Below, in pieces: positions 22,174 through 28,715 of a DNA stretch of 50,581 bases. A model generated the notes under the pieces. The model was not told the DNA's origin. It did not search any database and was given only the letters and a program-made list of their open reading frames with translations. Every line of letters begins with the position of its first letter. Position 1 is the stretch's first letter. The translations under genes were made by a program, and so were the position numbers. Location: contig JAUPVQ010000005.1 in NCBI GenBank assembly GCA_030916965.1, positions 1 to 50,581 of the forward strand. The letters run 5' to 3'. This DNA comes from Patescibacteria group bacterium. Its GTDB lineage: Bacteria > Patescibacteriota > Minisyncoccia > Phycocordibacterales > UBA9973.

Positions 22174-22653
22174 TTATTGCCCACCAAGCTCTTCGAGTGC
22201 TTTTGTTGCATAGAATTTAATATTTGGAATAATCTCTGTATTATCTAAGTCTTCCTTTGTAAACCATTTCGTCTCTACCCCTTTCTCGTGGTCTAATACA
22301 GATTCTGAGACAACATCGGTGTTGCTTGTAGCGAAATAGACAAATACAACATGCTCGTGAATTTCAGTTACAGGGTGCCTACCAAAATATCTTGGTGGGA
22401 TTAAATATTTATATCCTTTATTTTTAGGATCATTTTCATCTGGACCATCTGCACTACCTGCGATTTGTATATCCAGACCCACTTCCTCTTTCACTTCACG
22501 AATAGCCGCCTGGACAGGATCCTCGTCGAGCTCAATATGCCCTCCAACAGAAAACCAATCTTTATACTTATCATGCATACGAAGAAGGACTTTATTTTTA
22601 TGAACAATAAATACTTCGGAACAAAAATCAATTTTTTCGTGAATGTGGGCCAT
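22174..22653 (-). CDS. NUDIX hydrolase
   Basis: GGHIELDEDPVQAAIREVKEEVGL NUDIX box. Confidence 0.9.
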   Translation of the reverse strand: MAHIHEKIDFCSEVFIVHKNKVLLRMHDKYKDWFSVGGHIELDEDPVQAAIREVKEEVGLDIQIAGSADGPDENDPKNKGYKYLIPPRYFGRHPVTEIHEHVVFVYFATSNTDVVSESVLDHEKGVETKWFTKEDLDNTEIIPNIKFYATKALEELGGQ

Positions 22654-22656
22654 CTT

Positions 22657-23019
22657 TTATAAATTCAAAATTTTAATAAATCTTTTCATTACGACAAAGC
22701 AATATCCCCACAAGAATGGCAGCCACAGTGGCATAAGCCCTAGCAAGCTATTACGAACAAAAGTTTCTACTCCAGTGCTGATAAACATGACTTCGGAGAA
22801 AATCATCACAAAAAATCCAATGAAAAATATTACAATCTCTTTTCTATCCATTTTTACAAAAAAAGAAATTAAAATAATACCAATAAATAGTGCTGTAAGA
22901 ATATAATCATTTTGAACAAATGGGATCAACCCTATCATTAAAAAAATTGGGATTGTATTTAATATTATTAATTGGATTTTATTTTTCATATAAGTATTAT
23001 ACACCAATCGGTAAAACAT
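22657..23019 (-). CDS. hypothetical membrane protein
   Basis: Several TM segments. Confidence 0.5.
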   Translation of the reverse strand: MFYRLVYNTYMKNKIQLIILNTIPIFLMIGLIPFVQNDYILTALFIGIILISFFVKMDRKEIVIFFIGFFVMIFSEVMFISTGVETFVRNSLLGLMPLWLPFLWGYCFVVMKRFIKILNL

Positions 23020-23023
23020 ATTT

Positions 23024-23575
23024 TTATATATATTCTTCGCAGAGTTCCTTGTATAACTCTGGTTTTACTTTTTTAAAATATTCTTCCCTTTTCACTATTC
23101 CATTGACTTCAGGTACCCCAAAAGACTTACCGAATTCTAAAATTTTATTTTGGGCATTTTGCACTTCGTCTTTGCTTTCTACCATAATCTCTACCTCGAC
23201 AACACTCAGTCCGAAATCGAGCTCATCTACGCAAATTTCAAATTCACCGTTTTTATATTTCTTTCTTTTTGTAGAGTAATCTATAAAAGGCTTCATGTTT
23301 GCATTAATGAAATCCACTAGAGGAATTTGAATATTAAAAAAGTTATTAATTTCCTCTTCTGTCTCGAGCTCCTCGGCAACACCACCCCCGCTACCCACCT
23401 TTAGTTCCCAACCACCGTTGCGATTGCGTAGGCGTGTACCCTTTTTAAACATACGATAGTCTGGGTAATCATAATAAACATCATGCAAAATCTTCTCACC
23501 AAGAAATTCCGCATCTTTAAGCATTGCGTTCAATTGCTCCTCGTTGGGTTTAAATTTTTTCTCGACTTCGATCAT
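23024..23575 (-). CDS. CYTH-domain protein (triphosphatase/adenylate cyclase CyaB-like)
   Basis: MIEVEKKF…YYDYPDYRMFKKGTRLRNRNGGWELKVG. Confidence 0.8.
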   Translation of the reverse strand: MIEVEKKFKPNEEQLNAMLKDAEFLGEKILHDVYYDYPDYRMFKKGTRLRNRNGGWELKVGSGGGVAEELETEEEINNFFNIQIPLVDFINANMKPFIDYSTKRKKYKNGEFEICVDELDFGLSVVEVEIMVESKDEVQNAQNKILEFGKSFGVPEVNGIVKREEYFKKVKPELYKELCEEYI

Positions 23576-24003
23576 TTATTTATTTTGCTATCGTGATAAA
23601 TTTCTTTATTTTTATAACTTTGTATTGAAAGCTTGGTCATAGAGTACAGAGGCTCTGGCAGATTATCTATTTCATACCAACCCCAGCTCTCGCACTTCTC
23701 GGGCTCTAGAACCTGTGGCTCGCCACTCTCCCAATCAGCAGTGAAAGAAATATTTACAAAATGTTTTGGTGCATAGGACAAATCATTGGCAACGTGAAGA
23801 AATTTAAGGTTATTTATTTTTACTCCACACTCTTCCAGGACTTCTCTTTTGGCGCATTCATCAATACTCTCCATGTATTCTAAGTGTCCTCCAGGAGAAG
23901 AATATTCCCCACTACCATGAGCACCTTTACGCTTACCAAGTAAAATTTTCCCGTCTTTGAAAATCACTACCCCTGTACCAACTCTTGCTTGTGGTGTTTC
24001 CAT
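23572..24003 (-). CDS. NUDIX hydrolase
   Basis: GGHLEYMESIDECAKREVLEECGV. Confidence 0.9.
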   Translation of the reverse strand: METPQARVGTGVVIFKDGKILLGKRKGAHGSGEYSSPGGHLEYMESIDECAKREVLEECGVKINNLKFLHVANDLSYAPKHFVNISFTADWESGEPQVLEPEKCESWGWYEIDNLPEPLYSMTKLSIQSYKNKEIYHDSKINK

Positions 24004-24007
24004 ATAT

Positions 24008-24445
24008 TTATATTAAACCATTATCTACAACATACCTAATCATGTCCTTTTGGTCATATGCAATATCTAAATTCAAGGCCTCGTTTGGGTCTATCCATTT
24101 TATTTCTTCTACCTCCTCTATTTGATTCACTTTCGGTACGCCCGAAACTATCTTACAAATATGTGGCAATGCGATTCGGGAATGTTTTTTAATTGGTAAA
24201 TTATTGGTATCAAAGTATTGGCCAATAAATTTTATTACTTCTATTTCCACCCCAATTTCTTCTCGAACTTCTCTTTTCACTGCATCTTCTACCTTCTCGC
24301 CCCATTCCATCCAACCACCAGGCAAACACCAGCATCCAGGATATGTATCCATAGTACTTGCCCGCTTCTCAAGCAAAATCCGCCCCATATCATTGAGAAT
24401 GATTGCATCTACCCCTACCCATGGATGATCCTTGTTTGTATTCAT
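24008..24445 (-). CDS. NUDIX hydrolase
   Basis: GGWMEWGEKVEDAVKREVREEIGV. Confidence 0.9.
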   Translation of the reverse strand: MNTNKDHPWVGVDAIILNDMGRILLEKRASTMDTYPGCWCLPGGWMEWGEKVEDAVKREVREEIGVEIEVIKFIGQYFDTNNLPIKKHSRIALPHICKIVSGVPKVNQIEEVEEIKWIDPNEALNLDIAYDQKDMIRYVVDNGLI

Positions 24446-27394: not shown

Positions 27395-27423
27395 TTGACT
27401 TAAAAATACTTCCATACTAGTAT
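27395..27423 (+). promoter_or_regulatory. promoter TTGACT-N17-TAGTAT
   Basis: -35 at 27395-27400, -10 at 27418-27423, followed by N6 and the leader-peptide ATG. Confidence 0.65.
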
Positions 27424-27442
27424 ACTAGTATGGAAGTATTTT
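27403..27442. promoter_or_regulatory. putative TrpR operator, perfect 40-bp palindrome
   Basis: AAAATACTTCCATACTAGTA|TACTAGTATGGAAGTATTTT; core TACTAGTATACTAGTA differs from the E. coli trp operator core TACTAGTTAACTAGTA only at the central two bases. Confidence 0.8.
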
Positions 27443-27513
27443 ATATTAGAACTAAATACACAAAGAACACTACCAACCAAATCTGGTGGAACTCATTTAC
27501 GCATATGCGTTGA
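27430..27513 (+). CDS. trp-type leader peptide MEVFYIRTKYTKNTTNQIWWNSFTHMR*
   Basis: 27-codon ORF with tandem TGG TGG codons (27484-27489), stop codon inside attenuator region 2. Confidence 0.8.
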   Translation: MEVFYIRTKYTKNTTNQIWWNSFTHMR

Positions 27514-27585
27514 TGAGTGCCTTCCCCTACCCCTCTATTAAATAAGGAAATTACTCACCAGCGCAGAAATGCGCTTAATTTTTTT
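27491..27585 (+). promoter_or_regulatory. transcription attenuator (regions 1-4)
   Basis: 1:2 ACTCATTTACGCA/TGCGTTGATGAGT; 2:3 TGCGTTGATGAGT/ACTCACCAGCGCA; 3:4 AGCGCA-GAAA-TGCGCT then TAATTTTTTT. Confidence 0.82.
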
Positions 27586-27629: not shown

Positions 27630-28313
27630 ATGAAAACAATCATCTCCAACACAGAAAAAAAATGTATCGGATTTAAAAGATCTGATAATCGTTTCATCCA
27701 AATGGTAACAAATGAAAGTATTTTGGAATCAGATTTTACATTAAATGATTCAAAAAATTCTTTTTTTAGAGCCTATGATTACATCACCAAAGTAAAAGAT
27801 GGTGACGGTAAGCAATCCTACTGCCCTTTTGTCCGCTTGATTGAAAAACAAAATGGGTATTACCTGAAGTGCTATCACAAAACACTCAAAGAAGATTACC
27901 TAACAAACACTTCAACGGAACTTTTGCAAAAATTTATTGCACTATCTCCCTGTAAAACTTCGATTGATCAAAAGGTGGATACAACTACTGTGGTTGCAAT
28001 ACTTACGAATAGTAAAGCAACAACAGAAGAATCTCTTTCTCTTATGATCCAGGTCCGTGACAAAGTTAGACTCTCGTTCTTAGAGCAAGGCTTAATGATT
28101 GCGTACATGCACCCAATCCATGAGCTTGGTGGTGTAGGGAAACGTGGAAGTACCCTTCCAGAAACTCCAATGTATGTTGCAGAAATCCCTCTACTTATGG
28201 TTCGCAGAATGCACAAAGAAGACTACGTTTTCATGAATACTGAAGCTGAAAAGGAAGCATATTCAAAATACTTTTTGTCTAATACCCCTTTAAAGTGTCC
28301 ATTTCACAAATAA
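27630..28313 (+). CDS. protein of unknown function (possibly DUF6875-like), tryptophan-free
   Basis: 227-aa ORF downstream of the attenuator; no W residue; GLMIAYMHPIHELGG…P.YVAEIPLLMVRRMHKEDYVFM. Confidence 0.7.
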   Translation: MKTIISNTEKKCIGFKRSDNRFIQMVTNESILESDFTLNDSKNSFFRAYDYITKVKDGDGKQSYCPFVRLIEKQNGYYLKCYHKTLKEDYLTNTSTELLQKFIALSPCKTSIDQKVDTTTVVAILTNSKATTEESLSLMIQVRDKVRLSFLEQGLMIAYMHPIHELGGVGKRGSTLPETPMYVAEIPLLMVRRMHKEDYVFMNTEAEKEAYSKYFLSNTPLKCPFHK

Positions 28314-28335: not shown

Positions 28336-28371
28336 AATCCCCCGCAAACTAAACTTTCGGGGGATTTTTTA
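28336..28371 (+). terminator. rho-independent terminator
   Basis: AAATCCCCCG…CGGGGGATTTTTTAT. Confidence 0.85.
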
Positions 28372-28396
28372 TACTTCTATACTAGTAGGCAAGTAT
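28371..28396. promoter_or_regulatory. second TrpR-operator-like site
   Basis: ATACTT-cta-TACTAGTA-ggc-AAGTAT; shares half-site sequence and outer arms with 27403-27442. Confidence 0.6.
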
Positions 28397-28430
28397 TTTA
28401 ATAATTTAATTTTTGGGGTATAATACTACT

Positions 28431-28715
28431 ATGATTGACCCACGGAAAAACAAAGATGAGCTTATAAAGGCTATTATGATTGCGAGCTCTGATAAGGCTG
28501 TGCTTGAGGCATTCCTAGAAGATTTGCTTACTCCAAGAGAAAGAAATGCACTACCCAAGCGCTGGGAGATTGTCCGCCGGTTGTACAAAGGGGAGAAGCA
28601 GTGGGATGTAGCAGAGGATTTGAAGCTAGGTGTTGCAACTGTAACCCGAGGCTCCAGAGAGCTAAAAGACAAGAATGGGGGCTTTATAAAAGTATTGAAA
28701 AAATTGTATAAATAA
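28431..28715 (+). CDS. trpR: TrpR-family transcriptional repressor (start ATG at 28431, leaderless)
   Basis: LTPRERNALPKRWEIVRRLYKGEKQWDVAEDLKLGVATVTRGSRELK matches the TrpR HTH (E. coli GIATITRGSNSLK). Confidence 0.85.
   Translation: MIDPRKNKDELIKAIMIASSDKAVLEAFLEDLLTPRERNALPKRWEIVRRLYKGEKQWDVAEDLKLGVATVTRGSRELKDKNGGFIKVLKKLYK

Follow-up and report, generated by a model that had tools for sequence, protein, structure and literature searches.

A gene of the DUF6875 family in a small Patescibacteria genome (G000; 730 kb in 42 contigs, assembly 95.7% complete) lies behind a TrpR-type operator and a tandem-tryptophan attenuator, an arrangement that very probably places it under Trp-starvation control. 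Taken as a whole, our reading of the locus is that a horizontally gained DUF6875 gene sits in a TrpR-plus-attenuator cargo slot and encodes a putative oxidative Trp or indole salvage enzyme, a combination whose chances we put slightly below even. The window, that is the whole stretch of 50,581 nucleotides that was analysed, contains the features collected in Table 1.

Operator and attenuator ahead of the DUF6875 gene

The promoter of the DUF6875 gene is of the sigma-70 type, and the same layout with a 17-nt spacer is also found in the related genomes G006 and G434. CTAG-N4-CTAG, contained in the putative operator, is what we take to be the spacing of TrpR operators, by comparison with the E. 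coli operator. Operator-like 16-mers occur five times in the window, in two clusters, against an expectation of 0.19. The palindrome C6:11622, which separates an ssrA-like 3' end from a purB-like gene, was rejected as an operator and interpreted as a bidirectional terminator; operator-like sites at C8:233 and C38:9766, which lie inside coding sequence, were taken as chance.

Table 1. Coordinates of the predicted regulatory elements and genes at the DUF6875-trpR locus
Feature	Position	Strand	Details
Sigma-70 type promoter	27395..27423	+	-35 TTGACT 27395-27400, 17-nt spacer, -10 TAGTAT 27418-27423 on operator
TrpR-type operator, putative	27403..27442	.	40-bp perfect palindrome with CTAG-N4-CTAG
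Leader peptide	27430..27513	+	MEVFYIRTKYTKNTTNQIWWNSFTHMR then stop, 27 codons; ATG 6 nt past -10
Tandem Trp codons UGG UGG, predicted ribosome stall site	27484..27489	+	from sequence
1:2 hairpin	27491..27518	+	begins right after the WW codons, includes leader stop codon
2:3 antiterminator	27506..27565	+	27506-27519 paired with 27552-27565
3:4 intrinsic terminator	27560..27585	+	AGCGCA-GAAA-UGCGCU then UAAUUUUUUU
DUF6875 (PF21780) gene, product P0001	27630..28313	+	ATG-to-stop ORF, 227 aa, 0 Trp
Intrinsic terminator closing the DUF6875 transcript	28337..28371	+	CCCCCG...CGGGGG + T run
Second TrpR-type operator, imperfect	28372..28395	.	TACTTCTATACTAGTAGGCAAGTA; upstream of trpR
trpR-family repressor gene	28431..28715	+	94 aa; PF01371 E 8.9e-18, 64.6 bits (cut-off 27)

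The distance of 6 nt between the -10 box and the ATG of the leader peptide recurs at thyA and at trpR (-10 TATAAT at 28419-28424), and from this shared gap we deduce that the leader peptide is likely translated leaderless. A short upstream ORF with two consecutive Trp codons (WW) arose in none of 3000 dinucleotide shuffles. The leader RNA folds with a z-score of -4.8, and its antiterminator segment with one of -5.6. With a ribosome at WW, the RNA left free is predicted to form the antiterminator, which consumes the 5' arm of the terminator; with a ribosome at the leader stop codon, the terminator with its U run is predicted instead. The region has the sequence features of a ribosome-mediated trp attenuator, namely a tandem-Trp leader ORF and mutually exclusive 2:3 and 3:4 hairpins at the stall and stop positions. 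Trp-starvation control had been asserted without proof in an earlier note on this DNA; the operator 16-mer, the WW ORF and the fold z-scores, all far above chance, now give it a basis. An Rfam search of the window returned a tRNA only, so the attenuator is unmatched by any catalogued family. Downstream of the gene, G006 has a similar terminator at the corresponding place.

We propose that, when Trp is plentiful, TrpR would cover the -10 box and the start site, and a translating ribosome would finish the leader and cover region 2, so that the terminator forms. When Trp is scarce, the operator would be free and the ribosome would stall at UGG UGG; region 2 would then pair with region 3, and the DUF6875 gene would be transcribed. 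The E. coli trp operon has a CTAG-N4-CTAG operator over its -10 box, tandem Trp codons, alternating hairpins and a U-run terminator, and the module in the window shares all four. It differs from that operon in that its leader is seemingly leaderless, a single DUF6875 gene replaces trpEDCBA, and trpR is adjacent; neither trpA nor trpB was detected in G000, at its 95.7% completeness. The locus is also like trpRBA of Chlamydia trachomatis in that the genome is reduced, trpR adjoins its target, and trp genes are few, whereas the Chlamydia locus carries trpBA and has the iron repressor YtgR, not a WW leader, as its second layer of control, according to PMC7755916. Our search of the literature turned up no description of a trp attenuator from Patescibacteria, which is not proof of absence; with the module, these bacteria would gain a clear amino-acid-starvation circuit.

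The trpR gene is the next one downstream of the DUF6875 gene. Its product scores below the equivalog cut-off of TIGR01321 (46.5 vs 67.25 bits) and is therefore treated as a TrpR-family protein, not as a certified TrpR equivalog.

Family membership and composition of the 227-aa protein

The product, P0001, is almost certainly a DUF6875 member. In a Pfam search, residues 51-220 matched PF21780 with an E value of 1.8e-12 (48.1 bits, gathering cut-off 24.5), in agreement with the DUF6875 resemblance that the earlier note had proposed; the Trp-free 227-aa ORF that it described is likewise present as such. NCBIfam models, a PDB sequence search and a comparison with phage proteins gave no match to P0001. 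An AlphaFold model built from 11 sequences was of low confidence (pLDDT 51) and a heme was not placeable in it, and every Foldseek match to this model had E > 0.05 and was disregarded.

Residues C65, P187, R192 and D198 are invariant in 18 DUF6875 members, and H161 is common to 14 of the 18. P0001 retains all of the family-conserved residues (C65-P66, H161, P187, R192, D198 and F201). Conserved Cys and His residues had been proposed before, and this holds for C65 and H161, whereas CPFHK at the C terminus shows no conservation. The idea of one invariant His as the heme ligand was dropped, as no His is common to all 18 members; C65-P66 or H161 stay candidates. The N-terminal motif PHxxLGRxGxVCP is found in most DUF6875 members and is not universal in the Pfam family. 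Its PHxxLGR part is absent from P0001, which reads KDGDGKQSYCP there, and from the mycobacterial relatives (QGDGRKAHCP). The second His (xHN) of many DUF6875 members is absent from P0001 as well. At another locus, a DUF6875 gene that adjoins a Trp halogenase gene (L094:3977-4627) has an annotated start (4103) that is too late, and the upstream part carries a PHPxLGRxGVVCP motif that includes the Cys.

These residues bear on the alternative that the P0001 subfamily lost heme chemistry and now serves to bind Trp or indole, or as an accessory protein, in uptake or rationing, which we regard as quite unlikely. The missing PHxxLGR motif and second His are consistent with such a loss, as is the fact that a heme-copper terminal oxidase (COX1) was not found in G000, which makes the heme supply uncertain, and G000 also carries a single-CTAG operator in front of the gene for a possible transporter. 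The complete set of family-conserved residues listed above argues against it. The operator in question is a TrpR-type palindrome on contig C29 of G000 (L016:2996-3596), just 5' of a gene for a 188-aa membrane protein without a Pfam family, and this protein is a candidate Trp transporter of the same regulon. The syntenic counterpart of this operator in G006 precedes a DUF218/YdcF-like gene.

The absence of Trp from P0001 is not beyond chance. With a background of 1.12% Trp, the probability of finding none in 227 residues is 0.078, and 5 of 15 size-matched ORFs of the window, P0001 counted among them, are Trp-free. The nearest homologues contain at least 3 Trp each, which indicates that the Trp-free state is not a family trait, and at two aligned positions (IAW/IAY; PLWVS/MYVAE) a Trp of the mycobacterial relatives corresponds to a Tyr in P0001. 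Cargo of the same module type elsewhere is not Trp-poor either (5 Trp in 201 aa in G434; 7 Trp in 397 aa at L106). Identified cargo in relatives has 6 Trp observed vs 33.6 expected in 3002 aa, a set of related, partly truncated sequences in which TrpB and TrpE enzymes may be generally Trp-poor. The earlier note had taken the lack of Trp for an adaptation to scarcity and had proposed to test whether homologues are W-depleted; the probability, the homologues and the other cargo all speak against this, and the composition was dropped as stand-alone evidence (P ~0.08).

Cargo of the module in related genomes

Among 81 relatives searched, near-exact operators lie ~2 kb or less from a trpR homologue in G434, G024, G005, G011 and G006, as they do in G000, and four other genomes have isolated operator matches without a trpR neighbour. 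Matches to trpR were found in 48 of 148 family genomes, and leaders were surveyed around the best trpR matches in these 148, where WW leaders followed by terminators are recurrent. WW leaders adjoin trpR in G434, G421 and 12 further loci, and 12 of 13 tested leaders of relatives fold as an antiterminator with the ribosome held at WW. At several loci, trpS-trpR is directly 5' of the leader; in G421, trpS, a HAD-type gene and trpR come ahead of it.

The cargo of the module is trpB at L107 and L119, a trpB-like gene (trpB2) at L100, trpE at L111 and L118, and an amino-acid racemase gene at L108. At L104 and L109, trpB is accompanied by the operator, with no WW leader detected. The DUF6875 gene thus stands in a slot that relatives use for Trp-supply genes. 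Other cargo is without known function, as in G434 (158 and 201 aa), or without any family. G006 keeps the order glyA, thyA-type gene, cargo, trpR and DHFR, and its cargo is a different small protein of 109 aa with no assigned function. The syntenic thymidylate-synthase-type gene there (L050:4919-6058, minus strand) looks unlike thyA of the window, which suggests that neighbours as well as cargo have been exchanged at the locus. The swapped cargo of G006 and the G434 cargo of no known function would fit a horizontally gained gene that merely landed behind a trp-type promoter, with a function unrelated to Trp. We consider this very unlikely, given that the identified cargo in other genomes is trpB, trpB2, trpE or a racemase, and that the neighbours of DUF6875 genes and PMC13307353 tie the family to Trp chemistry.

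In these minimal genomes, any gene that follows TrpR and a WW leader would be a candidate Trp-supply gene, several unnamed families included. Unnamed cargo behind or near trpR or WW leaders, also candidates of this kind, was seen at L106:2066-3256, L116:586-1254 (minus strand) and L052:4780-5583 (minus strand), and the latter two have a common VPxCPDY-type motif, recognized by eye. In G025, a TrpR-like domain and a long protein, either membrane-bound or secreted, are apparently fused in one reading frame (L058:3692-5413) behind a CTAG-N4-CTAG operator; this may be an assembly frameshift.

Distribution and predicted role of the DUF6875 protein

DUF6875 proteins above cut-off occur in 3 of the 382 genomes searched from the phylum and in 2 of the 148 from the family, and G000 is the only one of the 148 with the gene at a trpR locus; homologues next to Trp regulators, which the earlier note had proposed to look for, were not found among the other family genomes. 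The second protein of the family genomes (G842, L128:1273-2022, minus strand) is divergent, has 4 Trp and adjoins a kinase-like gene, and neither a TrpR operator nor a WW leader was found near it. The patchy spread suggests that the G000 lineage probably acquired its gene horizontally.

Homologues of DUF6875 occur in mycobacteria, streptomycetes and rhizobia, and the recognizable relatives of P0001 are mycobacterial plasmid and chromosomal proteins (28-30% identity). A contig scan with P0001 alone gave no loci, and one with a mycobacterial sequence added gave 10 mycobacterial loci; because two peptide patterns were used, this set is biased. At the four mycobacterial chromosomal loci examined, the DUF6875 gene adjoins a large divergent NRPS-like ORF. 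Neighbours elsewhere include genes for Trp halogenase, IGP synthase, PRA isomerase, trpA, prenyltransferase and NRPS, and a PLP decarboxylase that is fused in some cases; plasmid DUF6875 genes often adjoin Trp genes. One mycobacterial DUF6875-related protein (L020:4926-5678) is annotated as 1-aminocyclopropane-1-carboxylate synthase and looks misannotated.

A 2026 JACS paper (PMC13307353) describes DUF6875 proteins as heme proteins that oxidise L-Trp and, citing Ma et al. (2025, bioRxiv), presents the cytochrome P422 family with ZigI as L-Trp C-7 hydroxylases. In the same paper, the zigI deletion phenotype fits C-7 hydroxylation, and a heme motif of the DUF6875 family is mentioned without being spelled out. 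The earlier suggestion of an enzyme gains from this paper and from the Trp-gene neighbours, which make an enzyme of Trp chemistry likely. P0001 resembles the family in its Pfam match, invariant C65, P187, R192 and D198, and Trp context. It is unlike cytochrome P422 members in that it has no biosynthetic cluster, is predicted to be starvation-induced, lacks PHxxLGR and is ~30% identical to the nearest relatives found, those of mycobacteria. We infer that P0001 is a heme enzyme of the cytochrome P422 type whose substrate is Trp or a relative of indole, and give such a substrate a somewhat better than even chance.

That Trp shortage should induce a Trp oxidase is a paradox, since known DUF6875 members are said to consume Trp. 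Oxidative salvage would reconcile starvation induction with the oxidation chemistry of the family: P0001 would recover usable Trp from an external Trp or indole derivative, for instance by oxidatively removing a substituent, and would not destroy free Trp. We tentatively favour this direction because the gene would be induced when Trp is missing and sits where relatives keep trpB or trpE. The missing PHxxLGR motif counts against the heme-enzyme salvage model, as do the uncertain heme supply, the weak AlphaFold model with no PDB match, and the pairing of DUF6875 with trpR in one genome only.

Alternatively, P0001 could be a stress or warfare enzyme that, during Trp shortage, attacks a Trp mimic or an indole toxin by oxidation, or makes a hydroxy-indole against a competitor. 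Such a role would fit the presence of DUF6875 genes in clusters of the antibiotic type, alongside NRPS, Trp halogenase and P450, and the YbaK-type tRNA deacylase gene next to DUF6875 in Rhizobium. We find the idea unlikely, and equally so its corollary that uncharged tRNA-Trp serves as an alarm: with TrpRS inhibited, free Trp would stay high and TrpR would go on repressing, such that the two controls together respond to a genuine lack of Trp, and no biosynthetic cluster surrounds the gene in the window. In Rhizobium etli p42d (L092:3917-5219), the DUF6875 gene is directly followed by the YbaK/EbsC family gene, and 39 Rhizobium plasmid records carry this DUF6875 gene.

Under the salvage reading, a DUF6875 heme enzyme may have been turned from Trp-consuming secondary metabolism to Trp supply in a bacterium in which no tryptophan synthase was detected, and the conserved slot may hold further, as yet unnamed Trp-supply enzymes in this family of Patescibacteria; this broader proposal is speculative, and we think it somewhat unlikely. 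The role of a DUF6875 protein would become testable outside secondary metabolism. Elsewhere in the window, three NUDIX-like ORFs and a CYTH-like ORF, recognized by eye from their translations, are clustered on the minus strand (22174-24445).
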